DNA of 17,386 bases, from contig QFQM01000092.1 in the NCBI GenBank assembly GCA_003243255.1, positions 1 to 17,386 of the forward strand, written 5' to 3'. This document shows, one piece after another, positions 7,022-16,679 of this stretch (position 1 is the stretch's first letter; each line of letters begins with the position of its first letter). The position numbers were made by a program, and so were the translations under genes. The notes beneath the pieces were generated by a model. That model was not told the DNA's origin. It saw only the letters and a program-made list of their open reading frames with translations, and did not search any database. This stretch comes from Flavobacterium psychrophilum. Lineage in GTDB: Bacteria > Bacteroidota > Bacteroidia > Flavobacteriales > Flavobacteriaceae.

Positions 7022-7094
7022 GTCATTGCGAGCGAAGTGAAACGTAGCGTGGCAATCTCTTTTAGATTGCTTCGTCGTACCTCCTCGCAATGAC
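7022..7094. repeat. Intergenic palindromic repeat (REP/MITE-like), possible shared terminator
   Basis: 73-bp element with perfect 11-bp outer arms GTCATTGCGAG / CTCGCAATGAC and inner arms GCAATCT (7052-7058) / AGATTGC (7064-7070) around a 5-nt loop. Sequences of this GTCATTGCGAG...GCAATCT type are, to my knowledge, scattered between genes in many Bacteroidota genomes. It sits between the convergent genes ending at 7004 and 7107, where the cruciform RNA could end both transcripts. Only one copy is in this window. Confidence 0.75.
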
Positions 7095-7106
7095 TTACGT
7101 AACTTA

Positions 7107-7493
7107 TTATTTATTAATAGCCACAGGCTCTTTATTCTCGTTGATGGCAACAAAAGTAAAATCACCGGTTATGGCTTTCTCCCTGGTGTCAGAATACATG
7201 TTCTCTACATAAATCTCAACATGTACCTTAAGGCTGGTGTTACCAATATGCGTAACCTTGCCTATCAGTTCGGCAAAAGTACCTGCCGGTATCGGTTTCT
7301 TGAAATCAATACGGTCGCTGCTAACAGTTACCATTCGCTGTCTGCTGAAACGTGTAGCGGTAATAAAAGCTACCTCATCCATCAGGTGCATGGCCATACC
7401 TCCGAAGAGCGTATCGTAATGATTGGTCGTGTTAGGGAATATTGCTTTAAAAATGTGTGTTTGTGCAGCGTCTATTTTTTGTTGTAATGTCAT
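7107..7493 (-). CDS. Acyl-CoA thioesterase, hotdog fold (YciA/BACH-like)
   Basis: A 128-residue single hotdog-domain enzyme predicted to hydrolyse acyl-CoA to free acid and CoA in the cytoplasm. Family landmarks are NHYDTLFGG (residues 24-32), MDEVAFITATR (38-48) with the usual acidic residues, and TVSSDRIDFKKPIPAG (56-71), followed by the GKVTHIGNTSLKVHVEI strand pair. Length fits a single-domain member. The start lies 2 bp after the fabH stop codon, so it is the second gene of a fabH operon. The pairing suggests a role in acyl-CoA primer supply or disposal, but this is inference. Confidence 0.9.
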   Translation of the reverse strand: MTLQQKIDAAQTHIFKAIFPNTTNHYDTLFGGMAMHLMDEVAFITATRFSRQRMVTVSSDRIDFKKPIPAGTFAELIGKVTHIGNTSLKVHVEIYVENMYSDTREKAITGDFTFVAINENKEPVAINK

Positions 7494-7495
7494 TG

Positions 7496-8500
7496 TTAGT
7501 TATAGTTTCTGAGATTTCCCCACACCACGCAGGTACTTCCCCATGTGAATCCGGCACCGAATGCGGTCAGCAATATTTTGTCACCGGGTTTAAAATCGTT
7601 ATGAAAGTCCCACAGGCAAAGCGGTAACGTAGCCGCTGTGGTGTTGCCGTAACGCTCAATATTCACCTTTACTTTTTCTTTAGGAATACCCAGATTTTGC
7701 CCTACCGAATCGATAATACGCAGGTTGGCCTGATGTGGCACTACCCAGTTGATATCTTCAGTGGTAATATCCAGTTTTTGCAACAATTCATTACTTGCAC
7801 TTGTCATACCGTTTATGGCATTTTTAAACACGGTACGCCCGTCCTGCTGTACATAATGCCTTTTATCGTCAAGTGTTTGCTGGCCTGTTCCTTCAGCCGA
7901 TCCTCCTGCCGGCACCGAAAGGAACTCAACCCCGCTTCCATCAGATTTGTAAACCGTATCCAAAACTCCTGTACCATCCTGAGAAGGCTCTAACAGTACC
8001 GCTCCCGCCCCATCACCAAAAAGCACGCAGGTATTGCGGTCTTCATAGTTTACGATGGCACTCATCTTGTCGGCTCCTACTAAAAGTACTTTTTTATGCC
8101 TTCCGCTCTCTACAAGCGAAGCTGCTACAGAAAGCGCATATAAAAAACCGCTACAGGCGGCATTCAGGTCGAAACCCCATGCATTTTTTAACCCTGCTTT
8201 TACACAGGCAAGGGGTGCGGTAGGCGACAGTAAATTATCCGGTGTGGACGTTGACAGAATAAGTACTTCAATTTCTTCAGGGTTTACACCCGATTTTTCA
8301 AGCAGGTTTTGTATTGCGTAAGCTGCCATGTCTGAGGTAGCTTTACCTTTTTCCAGTATCCTGCGTTCTTTTATACCCGTTCGGGTAATAATCCATTCGT
8401 CTGAGGTATCCACCATCTTTTCCAGGGCGGCATTATCAAGTACCGTTTCAGGCACATAGCCTCCAACAGCTGTAATCGTTGCGTTTATTTTGGTATTCAT
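7496..8500 (-). CDS. fabH: Beta-ketoacyl-ACP synthase III (KAS III)
   Basis: Condenses an acyl-CoA primer with malonyl-ACP to start fatty-acid synthesis. The 334-residue protein has the full KAS III catalytic triad: Cys116 in LNAACSGFL, His256 in VVPHQANLR, and Asn286 in ERYGNTTAA. The start region MNTKINATITAVGGYVPE and SDEWIITRTGIKERR (33-47) are classic for FabH. An upstream in-frame ATG at 8593 would add 31 residues unlike the family, so 8500 is chosen. Followed at 2 bp by a thioesterase. No clear -7 box lies just upstream. The nearest good promoter is at 8962-8969, which would place a cobalamin riboswitch in its leader. Bacteroidota often carry more than one fabH copy, so this may not be the housekeeping copy. 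Confidence 0.93.
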   Translation of the reverse strand: MNTKINATITAVGGYVPETVLDNAALEKMVDTSDEWIITRTGIKERRILEKGKATSDMAAYAIQNLLEKSGVNPEEIEVLILSTSTPDNLLSPTAPLACVKAGLKNAWGFDLNAACSGFLYALSVAASLVESGRHKKVLLVGADKMSAIVNYEDRNTCVLFGDGAGAVLLEPSQDGTGVLDTVYKSDGSGVEFLSVPAGGSAEGTGQQTLDDKRHYVQQDGRTVFKNAINGMTSASNELLQKLDITTEDINWVVPHQANLRIIDSVGQNLGIPKEKVKVNIERYGNTTAATLPLCLWDFHNDFKPGDKILLTAFGAGFTWGSTCVVWGNLRNYN

Positions 8501-8760
8501 AAAATTTGATTGATGTATGTATTGGCGTGCAGCAATAATGGTGCTAAACTCTATCCGGAAGACGAATAAAACGCACTGCCAACATTTTGGCATAAGCCTG
8601 ATGATTTTTGTGTCATGTTTTCTGCTTTTAAAAAATTAATAAATTAGTTAAAAGCCCTTCTGCCCATTTCACAATGCCTTAAGAAGTATGTTTACAGGCG
8701 TGGGTATTCCAGGGAACTGTAACCAATAGCTTCAAACCGCGAAAGCATTGTCAAGTAAGT
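8501..8760 (-). other. Long leader between the cobalamin riboswitch and fabH
   Basis: About 260 nt with no convincing gene. It holds the predicted riboswitch expression hairpin (GCTT 8746-8743 with AAGC 8732-8729). It also holds an A/T-rich inverted repeat GCTTTTAA / TTAAAAGC (8624-8655) and a 16-bp palindrome (8577-8592). Two tiny open frames of 18 and 21 codons (8692-8748, 8551-8616) have no support beyond being open. Confidence 0.55.
8577..8592. promoter_or_regulatory. 16-bp palindrome upstream of fabH, possible operator
   Basis: TGCCAA-CATT-TTGGCA: perfect 6-bp arms around 4 bp, 77 bp before the fabH start. Its position fits an operator for fabH or a transcript-internal hairpin. The binding protein is unknown. 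Confidence 0.35.
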
Positions 8761-8930
8761 AATGGCAGGTCTCCTGACTTATGCCGTTTTTACAGTCCTT
8801 CCCATCCGCAGCGGCAGACAGTGAACATTAGCAGTAAAAACTGTGGTGTGGCATTTACAGTTGCGCGACAGTTCGTGATTTGCACACGATTCCCTTTTCA
8901 TTCCGGCCTTAGCCAAAAACCATTTCCATT
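8761..8930 (-). ncRNA. Cobalamin riboswitch (AdoCbl-type aptamer, Rfam RF00174 class)
   Basis: On the minus strand the landmarks of the cobalamin aptamer appear in order. They are AAAAGGGAA (8898-8890), CGCGCAACTGTAA (ending 8855), TTCACTG in place of the usual CCACTG, GGGAAGG (8803-8797), and the B12 box AAGTCAGGAGACCTGCC (8780-8764). AATGG (8930-8926) can pair with CCATT (8765-8761) as the closing stem. Downstream, CGGTT (8739-8735) in a hairpin loop can pair with AACTG (8862-8858), the kissing interaction that couples B12 binding to expression. It has its own promoter (8962-8969). The next gene on the strand is fabH, 260 nt further on. Such elements usually precede B12 uptake or synthesis genes or B12-independent enzymes, so the context is unusual. 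Confidence 0.93.
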
Positions 8931-8961
8931 TGATAGAAATTAAGTAAAGAACTTGTGGGTG

Positions 8962-8969
8962 CAAATATA
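8962..8969 (-). promoter_or_regulatory. Predicted -7 element of the riboswitch transcript
   Basis: Minus strand TATATTTG matches TAnnTTTG exactly, about 32 nt before the aptamer closing stem. A TTTTTG lies 15 nt upstream and doubles as the U-tail of the terminator at 8991-9022, so it may act as a -33-like element. Confidence 0.6.
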
Positions 8970-8985
8970 CCAACTATATAAATAC

Positions 8986-9022
8986 AAAAAGTCCTGTCCG
9001 GCCAATAATGACGGGACAGGAC
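8986..9022 (-). terminator. Intrinsic terminator of the outer-membrane protein gene
   Basis: On the minus strand GTCCTGTCC (9022-9014) and GGACAGGAC (8999-8991) form a perfect GC-rich 9-bp stem with a 14-nt loop, followed by TTTTTG. It begins about 22 nt after the stop codon at 9044 and insulates the riboswitch promoter immediately downstream. Confidence 0.88.
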
Positions 9023-9043
9023 GGCTAACTCAAACGTTATTGT

Positions 9044-11464
9044 TTATAAACGATTCTGTTCTTCGGTTGTCTGGCGGGTTTTCCCATCCTGCAATTTCTG
9101 GTTACCAAAACGGTACCTGAACTGAATCCTGAAACTTTGCGTATCGCCATAATTCCTGTAACTGCTGTACTGATTAGCATAACTTGTAGTGGTAGTTTGA
9201 CGCTCGCCTTTATAGATATCAGAGAAAATTAGCGAAATTTCGCCATTTTCCTTCCAGAATCGTTTCCTGAAGCTTATGGAAAGGTTCGAAATATCATCTA
9301 ATTTGTAAGCTCCGTACACAGTTGGTGAAGAGTAGTAGAAACTGAGGTCGGCAAAAAAGTCTTTCTTTTTGTTCAGCGTAAAGCGATTGTTGGTATTTCC
9401 GTAAAACGTCCACCTGTCTATTTCCTGAATAGTTCCATCCACGCCCTGAAAGCTGTTTTGCTGATACCCTCCTGTTAAAAAAGTTCCTGCTTCCCACCAC
9501 GGAAACAACTCTACATTGGTATTAAATTCTGCCCCTACAGATGTATTGCTGCTAATGTTGGTATATTCTGTTATAATAGTACTCGTAGCATAATCCTGAT
9601 AGGTTATCATGTTGAACGGATCTTTTTCGTAACGGTAAAACGCCCCAAACATATATTTACCCTTAAGCGTATACTGTAAACCCAGATTATGGGCCAGTGC
9701 CGGTTGCAGTTGCGGATTACCCGTAGTGTATGAAAAAGGCGTACTATAAGACCTGAACGGATTGAGCATGCCATACTGTGGCCTGATGATACGCTTGCCA
9801 TAAGAGAAGCCGATCTGATGATTATCGGAAGCCTTATACAACAGATAAGCCGAAGGGAAAAGCTTGAAATAATCCTGACCGTTTACTTCTCCTGTGGTTT
9901 CCAGGTTCCCTTCGAGTTTAGTATGCTCACCACGAAGCCCCAACTTAACGCCCCATTTACCAAACTCCCTGTCGGCACCTACATATCCCGCAACGATTGA
10001 TTCATCATATAAAAACCTGTTCGAAAGGTTGCCCGGAACCTGAACACCGTCAATTTCGCTGTAATAATCAAAATTATTTTCGGCATCTACCTTACCGTAA
10101 CGCATTCCTCCCTCAATTTTAGTATTACCCAACTGCCCGTTGTAATCGGCCTGAACCGATAACAAATCGACACGTCGGGTATCATCACTCTGAATGTCCT
10201 GTTGCCTGTATGGCGGTGCATCGGGCAATGAAAAAGCCGTATTTATCCCCTGATCCTGGTTGGTGTAATATGTGGTATAGTCAGACGAAAGAACCAATAC
10301 ATGCTTAGCGTTGAACTTATGCTCAAAAGATCCTGTGAAAGTGCTGTTCTTTTCCGGGTAATCCCTGTGATTATGGCTTGTAAACAATGAATCAAGCTGG
10401 CCGGAAGCATTGTAAATATGCGTTGGCGTAGTTATAAGTGCGGTACTCTTAAGACTTTGGAAACCGTTAAATCCTGCTGTAAAAGTATTAAGTGAGTCAA
10501 TGGCATATTCAGCAGTTATGTTATAGCTGTTTTGCTGTTTTGCACGGTAATGCGATTTCTCCATGCTCTTCCATGTAGATGAGACATCCCCATTGGCATC
10601 AAAGTACTTTACTTCTCCCTGGCTCTGCGCGTAATAATGGCCTGAACCAAACATATAGCCCCCAAAAACCGTAAGTTTTTTATCTTTATAATAATGATTG
10701 GTCGCTACCACCCCTTTAGGGTACATTGACTGCACATAGGCTCCCGTTACCATACCTTTGTAGCCTCCCCCAATATTCTTTTTCATTTTGATGTTCAGTA
10801 CAGCGCTACCCTGAGCCTCATATTTTGCAGGCGGAGTAGTAATCACCTCAACTGATTTTATATTACTCCCATCGGTATTTTCAAGCAGGTTTTTCAGTTC
10901 AGTTCCGGTAAGGTACACCTTCTTATCGTTTATGGTAACCAGTATACCACTGCTTCCGCGAATGGAAAGCCCATCGCCTGCTGCGGTTACTCCCGGTGTT
11001 TTCTTCACGATTTCCCAGGCATTTTCAGATGACAATATCGAATTTTCCACATCAAACTCCAGGCGGTCTATCTTGCGGGTCACTACCGGCCTTTTCTTAT
11101 CTATTACTATACCATCAAGCTCTTTCGCTGATATTTTGAGTATTATATCCTGAACCGCTAGGTTTCCTGTAATCTGAAGTGCGGTACTGTAACTCTCGTA
11201 ACCAATAGTGCTAACCTCCAAGGTATAATCGTGCTGATTTGGATCGGAAGCAATTTCAAAACGGCCATTTTCATCGGTAAACGAAGTCCTTAAAAAGGTA
11301 CTGTCCTTTAATACTGCTTTCAGGATTACATTGGCAAAAGCTACAGGCTGCCTGTTGGTATCGAGCACTTTACCGGATACGGCGGGGTTCTGCGCCGCAC
11401 AGGTAAGTGAAATGAAAGTGATAATAAATGAAAACAAACGTTTTTTAATGATGATTGAACCCAT
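9044..11464 (-). CDS. Outer-membrane beta-barrel protein, TonB-receptor-like (carboxypeptidase-regulatory domain plus OMP_b-brl_3 barrel)
   Basis: An 806-residue outer-membrane protein. An N-terminal signal peptide (to about residue 25, ending CAAQ) is followed by a carboxypeptidase-regulatory-like domain (about 28-115, VSGKVLDTNRQPVAFANVIL). A plug-like segment comes next (about 130-225, KTPGVTAAGDGLSIRGSSGI, then VEVITTPPAKYEAQGSAVLN). The remainder is beta-barrel, ending near FRIQFRYRFG with a polar tail. The family (outer membrane beta-barrel, OMP_b-brl_3) is common in Bacteroidota; its substrates are mostly unknown. The gene is divergent from a histidine kinase/response regulator pair, whose predicted binding sites lie between them, so it is a likely target of that system. 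It ends at a strong terminator. TCATCA-type repeats surround the start codon. Confidence 0.9.
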   Translation of the reverse strand: MGSIIIKKRLFSFIITFISLTCAAQNPAVSGKVLDTNRQPVAFANVILKAVLKDSTFLRTSFTDENGRFEIASDPNQHDYTLEVSTIGYESYSTALQITGNLAVQDIILKISAKELDGIVIDKKRPVVTRKIDRLEFDVENSILSSENAWEIVKKTPGVTAAGDGLSIRGSSGILVTINDKKVYLTGTELKNLLENTDGSNIKSVEVITTPPAKYEAQGSAVLNIKMKKNIGGGYKGMVTGAYVQSMYPKGVVATNHYYKDKKLTVFGGYMFGSGHYYAQSQGEVKYFDANGDVSSTWKSMEKSHYRAKQQNSYNITAEYAIDSLNTFTAGFNGFQSLKSTALITTPTHIYNASGQLDSLFTSHNHRDYPEKNSTFTGSFEHKFNAKHVLVLSSDYTTYYTNQDQGINTAFSLPDAPPYRQQDIQSDDTRRVDLLSVQADYNGQLGNTKIEGGMRYGKVDAENNFDYYSEIDGVQVPGNLSNRFLYDESIVAGYVGADREFGKWGVKLGLRGEHTKLEGNLETTGEVNGQDYFKLFPSAYLLYKASDNHQIGFSYGKRIIRPQYGMLNPFRSYSTPFSYTTGNPQLQPALAHNLGLQYTLKGKYMFGAFYRYEKDPFNMITYQDYATSTIITEYTNISSNTSVGAEFNTNVELFPWWEAGTFLTGGYQQNSFQGVDGTIQEIDRWTFYGNTNNRFTLNKKKDFFADLSFYYSSPTVYGAYKLDDISNLSISFRKRFWKENGEISLIFSDIYKGERQTTTTSYANQYSSYRNYGDTQSFRIQFRYRFGNQKLQDGKTRQTTEEQNRL

Positions 11465-15150: not shown

Positions 15151-15594
15151 ATGAGCAACAGAATCATACAAAAAAGCATCACTTTAAATGCCTCTCCTCA
15201 AAAGGTATGGCAAGTGCTAATGGAATCTCCTTACATAGATGAATGGTATGCCGAATTTGGCGAAGACCTTAAAGTAGAAACCGACTGGTCAACCGGAAGC
15301 AAATACAGGGTTGTTGACAGCAATGGTTTAGGTATGGTAGGTAAAATTGCCGAAAATGTGCCGGGAAAAACCTTATCCATCGAATCTGAAGGCATGGTAA
15401 AAGACAACAAAGATGATTTTGAAAGTCCAGAGGCCAAGATGCTCAAAGGTAATCGCGAAACCTATTGGTTATCCGAAACTGCCGGAGGCACAAAACTCGA
15501 CATTGAATCGGCGTGTTTTGAAGAATATGCTGACCTAATGGCCGACATGTGGGACAAAGCTCTTATTAAGATCAAACAGCTTGCAGAAAAATAG
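15151..15594 (+). CDS. SRPBCC-domain protein (AHSA1/START-like), cytoplasmic
   Basis: A 147-residue single-domain helix-grip protein. The opening IIQKSITLNASPQKVWQVLM and the following WYAEFGEDLKVETDWSTGSKY are typical of the SRPBCC/AHSA1 start, and the C-terminal helix (MADMWDKALIKIKQLAEK) closes the ligand cavity. There is no signal peptide or membrane segment, unlike the next two SRPBCC genes. Such proteins bind hydrophobic ligands, and no catalytic residue can be named. First gene of a plus-strand cassette, 26 bp before the next gene and divergent from a GlxA-type regulator. Confidence 0.88.
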   Translation: MSNRIIQKSITLNASPQKVWQVLMESPYIDEWYAEFGEDLKVETDWSTGSKYRVVDSNGLGMVGKIAENVPGKTLSIESEGMVKDNKDDFESPEAKMLKGNRETYWLSETAGGTKLDIESACFEEYADLMADMWDKALIKIKQLAEK

Positions 15595-15620
15595 CATCAC
15601 AACAAACACCAAAACCACTT

Positions 15621-16148
15621 ATGAGAATCCTTAAAAAAATCCTGATCGTAATCGTAATCCTGATCGCATTGCCTTTTGTCATTGCGTTATTCGTTAACAA
15701 TGAATATGATGTTACCCGCGAATTAGTCATCAACAAGCCTAAAGCCGAAGTGTTTGATTATGTAAAGCACATCAAAAACCAGGACTATTACAGCGTATGG
15801 AACATGACCGATCCTAATATGAAGAAAAACTTCACAGGAACAGATGGTACTGTTGGGTTTATATACCACTGGGATGGCAATGATGAGGTAGGCGAAGGTA
15901 AACAGGAAATTACTGCCATTAAAGAAGGGGAACGTGTAGATATGAGTCTGCTGTTCATCCGTCCTTTTGAAGGTGATGCCCATACCTACATGGCTACCGA
16001 AGATGCTCCCGGCGGCACAAAAGTAACCTGGAACATGAAAGGCTACAGCAACTACCCTATGAACATCATGAACCTGTTTATGAACAAACAGCTGGGTGGT
16101 GCCTTTGAGCAGGGACTTACAAACATGAAAAACAACCTTGAAAAATAA
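15621..16148 (+). CDS. Membrane-anchored SRPBCC-domain protein, paralogue 1
   Basis: A 175-residue protein with an N-terminal membrane helix (about residues 5-25) followed by an SRPBCC (polyketide-cyclase-like) domain from about 30. Landmarks include INKPKAEVFDYVKHIKN, TGTDGTVGFIYHWDGN and LLFIRPFEGDAHTYM. The helix with a basic start (MRILKKIL) should anchor it in the inner membrane; which side the domain faces is not certain. It is clearly paralogous to the next gene, which begins 6 bp after its stop, so the pair arose by tandem duplication. Ligand and function are unknown. Confidence 0.88.
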   Translation: MRILKKILIVIVILIALPFVIALFVNNEYDVTRELVINKPKAEVFDYVKHIKNQDYYSVWNMTDPNMKKNFTGTDGTVGFIYHWDGNDEVGEGKQEITAIKEGERVDMSLLFIRPFEGDAHTYMATEDAPGGTKVTWNMKGYSNYPMNIMNLFMNKQLGGAFEQGLTNMKNNLEK

Positions 16149-16154
16149 TACGTT

Positions 16155-16679
16155 ATGATGACCTTGATCTGGATAATAGTAATAGTACTGGGTATACCGG
16201 CAATTCTGGCACTTTTTATACCAAAAGAATATGCTGTTGAAGCCTTTACCTTCATCAACAAACCAAAACACGAAGTGTTTGACTACCTGAAATACATCAA
16301 CAATCAGGAAGAATACAGCAAATGGGTTAAAACCGATCCCAACATTAAAAAGACCCTTACAGGAACTGATGGTACTGTAGGCTACATTTATGCCTGGAAT
16401 GGCAACAGCAAAGCCGGTGAAGGTGAACAGGAAATAACCGGAATTGTAGACGGCGAACGCATTACCACTGAAGTGAGGTTCATAAGGCCTTTTAAGAGTG
16501 TAGCTCACTTTTACATGACTACTGAAGCTGAAAGCGAACATAGCACCAAAATTGTGTGGCGTATGACCGGCAAAAGCCCTTACCCGATAAACCTTATGTC
16601 GGCCATGATGAAAGGTGCGCTGCGCAATGATATGAACATCAGCCTTAACGACCTGAAGCAAATATTGGAAAGCAGATAA
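16155..16679 (+). CDS. Membrane-anchored SRPBCC-domain protein, paralogue 2
   Basis: A 174-residue protein of the same layout as its upstream neighbour: N-terminal membrane helix (about 4-22) and an SRPBCC domain. It shares INKPKxEVFDYxKxI, TGTDGTVGxIYxW, the GEGxQEIT stretch and the FIRPF motif with paralogue 1. Two adjacent Met codons open the frame, so the exact start may be one codon later. It is 6 bp from the previous gene and 30 bp before the VOC gene, consistent with one transcript. The end differs (ALRNDMNISLNDLKQILESR). Retention of two similar membrane-anchored copies suggests distinct ligands or a heteromer, which is inference. Confidence 0.88.
   Translation: MMTLIWIIVIVLGIPAILALFIPKEYAVEAFTFINKPKHEVFDYLKYINNQEEYSKWVKTDPNIKKTLTGTDGTVGYIYAWNGNSKAGEGEQEITGIVDGERITTEVRFIRPFKSVAHFYMTTEAESEHSTKIVWRMTGKSPYPINLMSAMMKGALRNDMNISLNDLKQILESR

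Follow-up and report, generated by a model that had tools for sequence, protein, structure and literature searches.

In the window, i.e., the 17,386-nt stretch of Flavobacterium psychrophilum DNA analyzed here (contig QFQM01000092.1), a cobalamin riboswitch stands directly upstream of a fabH gene and an acyl-CoA thioesterase gene, and this linkage is both conserved and rearranged in relatives. On balance, we favor the explanation that a working riboswitch leads this operon, allows its expression when B12 is scarce, and thereby helps to drain a backlog of acyl-CoA. The elements of the locus are as follows:

7107-7493, minus strand: acyl-CoA thioesterase of the 4HBT hot-dog family, 128 aa (PF03061)
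7496-8500, minus strand: fabH (KAS III), named FabH3 here (PF08545, PF08541, TIGR00747)
8671-8680, minus strand: possible alternative-helix segment, a potential pairing partner for the 5' arm (8742-8751) of the hairpin listed next
8724-8750, minus strand: possible P13-like hairpin directly 3' of the aptamer, putative start of the expression platform
8747-8939, minus strand: cobalamin riboswitch aptamer (RF00174, 94.6 bits, E 8.1e-23)
8962-8969, minus strand: putative sigma-A -7 promoter box TATATTTG, a TAnnTTTG match just before the aptamer

The riboswitch and its leader

A cobalamin aptamer had been recognized here in the initial annotation, and the covariance search bears this out: the match extends over the full RF00174 model (1-189 of 189), far above the gathering score of 31.5, and nothing else in the window matches Rfam at the gathering threshold. 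The element is thus confirmed as a cobalamin riboswitch by sequence and structure. The proposed gene order holds as well, with fabH following the riboswitch on the same strand and the thioesterase gene following fabH after a gap of two bases; the span first given to the locus, 7107-8930, covers all of it except for 9 nt at the beginning of the aptamer match. FabH scores 363.5 bits against the NCBIfam fabH model TIGR00747 (cut-off 292.1), and has both KAS III domains and the catalytic Cys-His-Asn motifs. Its ORF opens at 8593 and was taken as 7496-8500 because the alignment of its relatives begins at the ATG at 8500; the spacer between the end of the aptamer and this ATG is 246 nt. The thioesterase scores 61.5 bits against PF03061 (cut-off 20.6), and the solved chains nearest to it are 2gvh and 2eis.

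In a motif scan of the minus strand from 7282 to 9645, TAnnTTTG, the sigma-A -7 consensus described for F. psychrophilum (PMC9723704), gave the single match at 8962-8969. Such boxes do not exceed chance frequency over the window as a whole (27 versus 20.95 in shuffles). When six riboswitch-fabH/thioesterase loci are aligned, a TAnnTTTG-like box is seen by eye in the same place. The P13-like hairpin is also kept across this alignment, and alternative pairing of its 5' arm can be drawn in three of the six loci (the window, L143, and L001), both judged by eye.

A terminator scan and a comparison of start-region pairing with shuffles revealed neither a convincing terminator nor a convincing start-codon sequestor in the window. 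The minus strand of the spacer holds one weak terminator-like site (8592-8577), and the region as a whole has four such sites against 2.0 (sd 1.6) in shuffles. For the E. coli btuB riboswitch, a ligand-dependent block of ribosome binding has been demonstrated (PMC2258182). Start-codon sequestration was considered as the platform here and was not borne out: start-region pairing in the window is not above shuffles (z 0.33), and in 25 relatives the mean z is -0.75, with only seven below -1. RNAalifold on these 25 leaders returned 20 pairs, of which three show changes in both partners, and did not reveal a clear switch. A 21-codon ORF in the spacer (8551-8616), considered as a hidden small gene, was likewise dismissed, being unrecognizable in L143 or L001 by reading.

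OFF switches are the rule among cobalamin riboswitches. The operon would accordingly be expected to be off when B12 is bound and on when B12 is scarce, as is usual before such genes.

Elsewhere in the window, an inverted repeat, GTCATTGCGAG ... CTCGCAATGAC (7022-7094; 11-nt arms, 51 nt apart), lies between the thioesterase gene and a converging TonB-receptor gene; it could represent a terminator or a repeat of mobile origin. Three adjacent SRPBCC/AHSA1-like ORFs are found at 15151-16679, the first recognized by PF08327 and the other two by reading.

Linked genes in Flavobacterium and its relatives

The initial annotation had called for a synteny comparison, and the riboswitch-fabH order is indeed kept in relatives. 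In five other Flavobacterium genomes a riboswitch lies directly upstream of the fabH/thioesterase pair: it precedes fabH in G034, G001, G060, and G148, while in G112 (L146) the order is swapped, with the thioesterase gene first and fabH second. The nearest relative obtained, G034, has a FabH 93% identical to that of the window. In F. cerinum (L001) the riboswitch is at 9444-9631, fabH at 10001, and the neighbors are as in the window; in 19 kb each of G060 (L148) and G112 (L146), none of the five other window neighbors queried was found. Behind fabH in G148, only 35 thioesterase residues match; this genome has a full copy of the gene elsewhere, where no riboswitch was found.

These arrangements bear on the suggestion, raised with the initial annotation, that the riboswitch is left over from a B12 gene, btuB for example, that has since been lost. 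Most other cobalamin riboswitches read in the genus precede TonB-receptor- or lipoprotein-like genes (by reading), and the spacer of the window is 246 nt long, both of which would suit a relic. This reading was nonetheless rejected, as the least credible of those considered, because the linkage is conserved and permuted in relatives; in addition, the spacer is only ~140 nt in L148 and L150, and a btuB-like gene between riboswitch and fabH/thioesterase is absent from all six Flavobacterium loci read, window included. It is also very improbable that fabH is transcribed from a separate promoter within 8500-8746, with no response to B12. The spacer is sufficiently long to house one, and TAnnTTTG is one promoter type among others, but no TAnnTTTG lies on the minus strand between aptamer and fabH, and the linkage is kept where the spacer is short (again L148 and L150).

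A FabH match was found in 148 of the 150 Flavobacterium genomes drawn around F. cerinum that form the genus sample, and the closer paralogue FabH3 in 23 of them. FabH3 proteins make up one separate clade (26 of 49 tree rows, support 100/100), which includes all seven riboswitch-linked FabH found, the window's among them; the Cys, His, and Asn motifs are kept in all seven. FabH had to be abandoned as the conserved riboswitch target, however, since the linkage is seen for only five of the 23 FabH3 genes in the genus sample. In G119, a fabH3-thioesterase pair has no riboswitch that could be found, even by a permissive search. Surveys of Flavobacterium, of the order, and of the Sphingobacteriaceae point instead to the thioesterase as the constant target, fabH probably being a passenger in some lineages.

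The Flavobacterium set comprised 54 close thioesterase rows (46-96% identity) from 52 genomes, the row of G076 being truncated where its contig stops. For 19 of the 54 genes, the operon is headed by a cobalamin-clan riboswitch in the same orientation. It lies directly before the thioesterase gene in G086, G019, G099, G085, and G042, and before two copies each in G021 and G124; in the remaining riboswitch-led operons the thioesterase gene is behind fabH (G034, G001, G060), before fabH (G112), behind a PP-loop ATPase gene (G025, G131), or behind nrdB-nrdA (G145, G028, G023, G108). The best matches of these 19 riboswitches are RF00174, RF01482, or RF01689, four of them (L225, L226, L228, L229) falling under the gathering score of the named family; these four are short and are perhaps compact variants missed by Rfam.

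No riboswitch was found in the stretches read for the other 35 genes. Twenty-four of these lie behind a ribBA-like gene, identified by reading (L234-L246, L248, L249, L252-L260), and seven are located elsewhere (G119, G045, G130, G037, G148, G059, and G077, with just 654 bases available upstream in G045); for G058, G064, G067, and G078, there was no riboswitch among the matches listed in the strict scan. Permissive Rfam searches for missed riboswitches returned none in L145, L147, L231, L233, L290, and L299, and none in ~1.5 kb or less upstream at 12 unlinked Sphingobacteriaceae loci.

In the order sample (296 genomes), the thioesterase is found in 60 genomes at E <= 1e-22, of which 40, i.e., the best ones minus five already in the genus sample, were searched for RF00174; some of these 40 may be Flavobacterium. 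RF00174 is present upstream on the same strand in 33 of the 40 (two of the hits, in G722 and G736, being below the gathering score), at 49-119 nt in 32 cases and, in G851, at 814 nt, with a PP-loop ATPase gene in between. In the Sphingobacteriaceae, to which Pedobacter aquatilis belongs, the thioesterase is present in 43 of 101 genomes, and in 14 of the 40 searched its operon is led by a riboswitch. Within 4.5 kb of the 80 thioesterase genes of these two sets, no riboswitch was found in any position other than that of leader. When the presence of a riboswitch is mapped onto a tree of 59 selected thioesterases, 10 changes are required, with at least three forced by well supported branches; three of the changes may amount to one gain and two losses. 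A regulatory link between riboswitch and operon is well supported.

The genes that accompany the thioesterase are none, fabH, metE, metE plus fabH, nrdBA, or that of a PP-loop ATPase. Nine of the 14 linked Sphingobacteriaceae operons are metE-thioesterase, one is metE-fabH3-thioesterase (G637), one is nrdBA-thioesterase (G554), and in three a PAS-domain ORF or similar precedes the thioesterase gene, in one case together with a shortened metE-like ORF. metE is thus found in 10 and nrdBA in one of these 14 loci, the window itself having neither, and nrdBA is in the operon of four of the 19 linked Flavobacterium genes; metE and nrdBA were identified by Pfam and NCBIfam searches of representatives only. 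At L328, one riboswitch heads metE, fabH3, and the thioesterase gene together. Since metE and nrdBA encode B12-independent isozymes, the thioesterase would belong to a low-B12 regulon.

Other features of these operons were noted. A PP-loop ATPase gene stands between cobalamin riboswitch and thioesterase gene in L166, L168, and L287, PF01902 having been detected in the L287 protein. A small PAS-domain protein (PF13426) is encoded in the same position in L320 (2055-2585, minus strand), with similar ORFs in L323 and L324, all three loci being from Sphingobacteriaceae. Shortened metE-like ORFs precede the thioesterase gene on its strand in L230 (86-445) and L323 (658-1533), by reading, which gives the impression of a metE in decay next to a thioesterase gene that has been retained. 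In L278, L281, and L282, the thioesterase gene follows a gene read as nrdA-like; these genomes lack PF01642, and no riboswitch was detected within 1.5 kb.

B12 shortage and acyl-CoA

When B12 is scarce, methylmalonyl-CoA mutase stalls, and propionyl-CoA and methylmalonyl-CoA accumulate. The riboswitch-led operon may be one form of a Bacteroidota low-B12 operon in which the thioesterase is constant and metE and nrdBA are among the other members. The thioesterase would not substitute for a B12 enzyme but would most likely handle the backlog of stalled B12-dependent acyl-CoA mutases, methylmalonyl-CoA mutase foremost among them, hydrolyzing propionyl-, methylmalonyl-, or related CoA esters and so releasing free CoA. 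FabH3 would provide a second drain by priming fatty-acid synthesis with propionyl-CoA or branched acyl-CoA. A rationale through B12, the mutase, and propionyl-CoA had been put forward from the outset and is still the best available; what has shifted is the emphasis, the thioesterase rather than fabH now being the conserved target.

The distribution of the mutase family (PF01642) is consistent with this scheme in one family. Within Sphingobacteriaceae, 16 of 40 genomes have PF01642, and linkage is found in 13 of these 16 versus one of the 24 mutase-negative genomes (Fisher 5.8e-7, uncorrected for kinship), or, among the 28 genomes with any RF00174 hit, in 13 of 15 versus one of 13 (6.9e-5, also uncorrected for kinship). 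Kinship alone could give this correlation, because the set of mutase-positive genomes coincides with the 16 genomes whose thioesterases match best. Three mutase-positive genomes are unlinked; in one of them, G572, the gene lies 727 bases from a contig end. Mutase-negative genomes retain the thioesterase, and G554 is linked without a mutase. PF01642 is present in all 10 order genomes tested and in all 27 genus-sample genomes chosen, linked and unlinked, so that mutase presence fails to separate the two groups in Flavobacterium.

Riboswitch control could also be real and serve a different purpose, namely lipid make-up, with FabH3 and the thioesterase altering primer use or free fatty acids at low B12. 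FabH3 forming its own KAS III clade with intact Cys/His/Asn motifs in all linked members would fit, as would the fatty-acid desaturase reported behind a B12 riboswitch (PMC2211319); as the majority of linked operons have the thioesterase without fabH, we regard this purpose as unlikely. A little more doubtful still is that fabH and the thioesterase gene came by chance to lie after riboswitch promoters or within metE/nrd operons, with no B12-related role. The thioesterase does join many operons, because it is also found behind the ribBA-like gene and behind the nrdA-like genes of L278, L281, and L282, for which no riboswitch was detected within 1.5 kb. Such hitch-hiking is, however, hard to reconcile with three cobalamin families standing directly before the thioesterase gene, with no other genes, in many genomes, with the repeated and partly forced changes of the riboswitch label on the tree, and with the lack of any non-leader riboswitch near the 80 genes surveyed.

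The pairing of riboswitch and gene in relatives suggests a CoA safety valve switched on at B12 shortage. That this valve is part of the B12-starvation response of Bacteroidota, assembled more than once with different cobalamin riboswitch families, is a more tentative proposal, to which we would give somewhat less than an even chance. If true, it would be a bacterial counterpart of methylmalonic aciduria. A conserved thioesterase target would give an anonymous hot-dog protein a function that can be tested, link B12 status in Flavobacterium to the primers of fatty-acid synthesis, and predict that bacteria relying on the B12 of other microbes release propionate or methylmalonate.

Relation to known systems

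Cobalamin riboswitches run genes for B12 uptake, B12 synthesis, and isozymes, and B12 control of nrdAB is known. So is that of metE (PMC2211319, PMC8123684), and in F. psychrophilum a cobalamin riboswitch has been reported before a TonB-dependent transporter gene (PMC9723704). In the literature searched, which took in few subscription journals, no cobalamin riboswitch tied to fabH/KAS III or to an acyl-CoA thioesterase was found; the RNA family is known, and the target and its logic look new. A conserved acyl-CoA thioesterase target in two Bacteroidota orders would add a further logic to these riboswitches, that of coping with an acyl-CoA backlog.

FabH3 is of the same family as the housekeeping FabH (KAS III) and shares its catalytic motifs, but forms a separate clade found in 23 of the 150 genus-sample genomes. 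YciA-type thioesterases share the hot-dog superfamily (PF03061) with the window protein, and we know of no B12 control of YciA. YciA is the best curated thioesterase match in NCBIfam, yet the window protein scores 51.7 bits against a cut-off of 162 (NF007970), and the analogy of substrates is weak because this score is so far under the curated cut-off. In engineered strains, related YciA thioesterases accept propionyl-CoA and C5 dicarboxylyl-CoA esters: YciA expression increased propionate formation from levulinate in Pseudomonas putida (PMC9399607), and in Methylorubrum YciA freed 2-methylsuccinate and mesaconate from their CoA esters (PMC9529712).

A B12 riboswitch before the fatty-acid desaturase gene ole1, described from metagenomes, likewise places a lipid-related gene behind this RNA; it concerns another enzyme, and that report explains it by a supposed isozyme pair, with no CoA-ester logic (PMC2211319).

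A close parallel is with metE and nrdAB, which are preceded by the same RNA families (RF00174, RF01482, RF01689) and share such operons with the thioesterase in relatives of the window. In contrast to the products of these genes, neither the thioesterase nor FabH3 is an isozyme of a B12 enzyme; both would rather handle the substrates that accumulate when one stalls.
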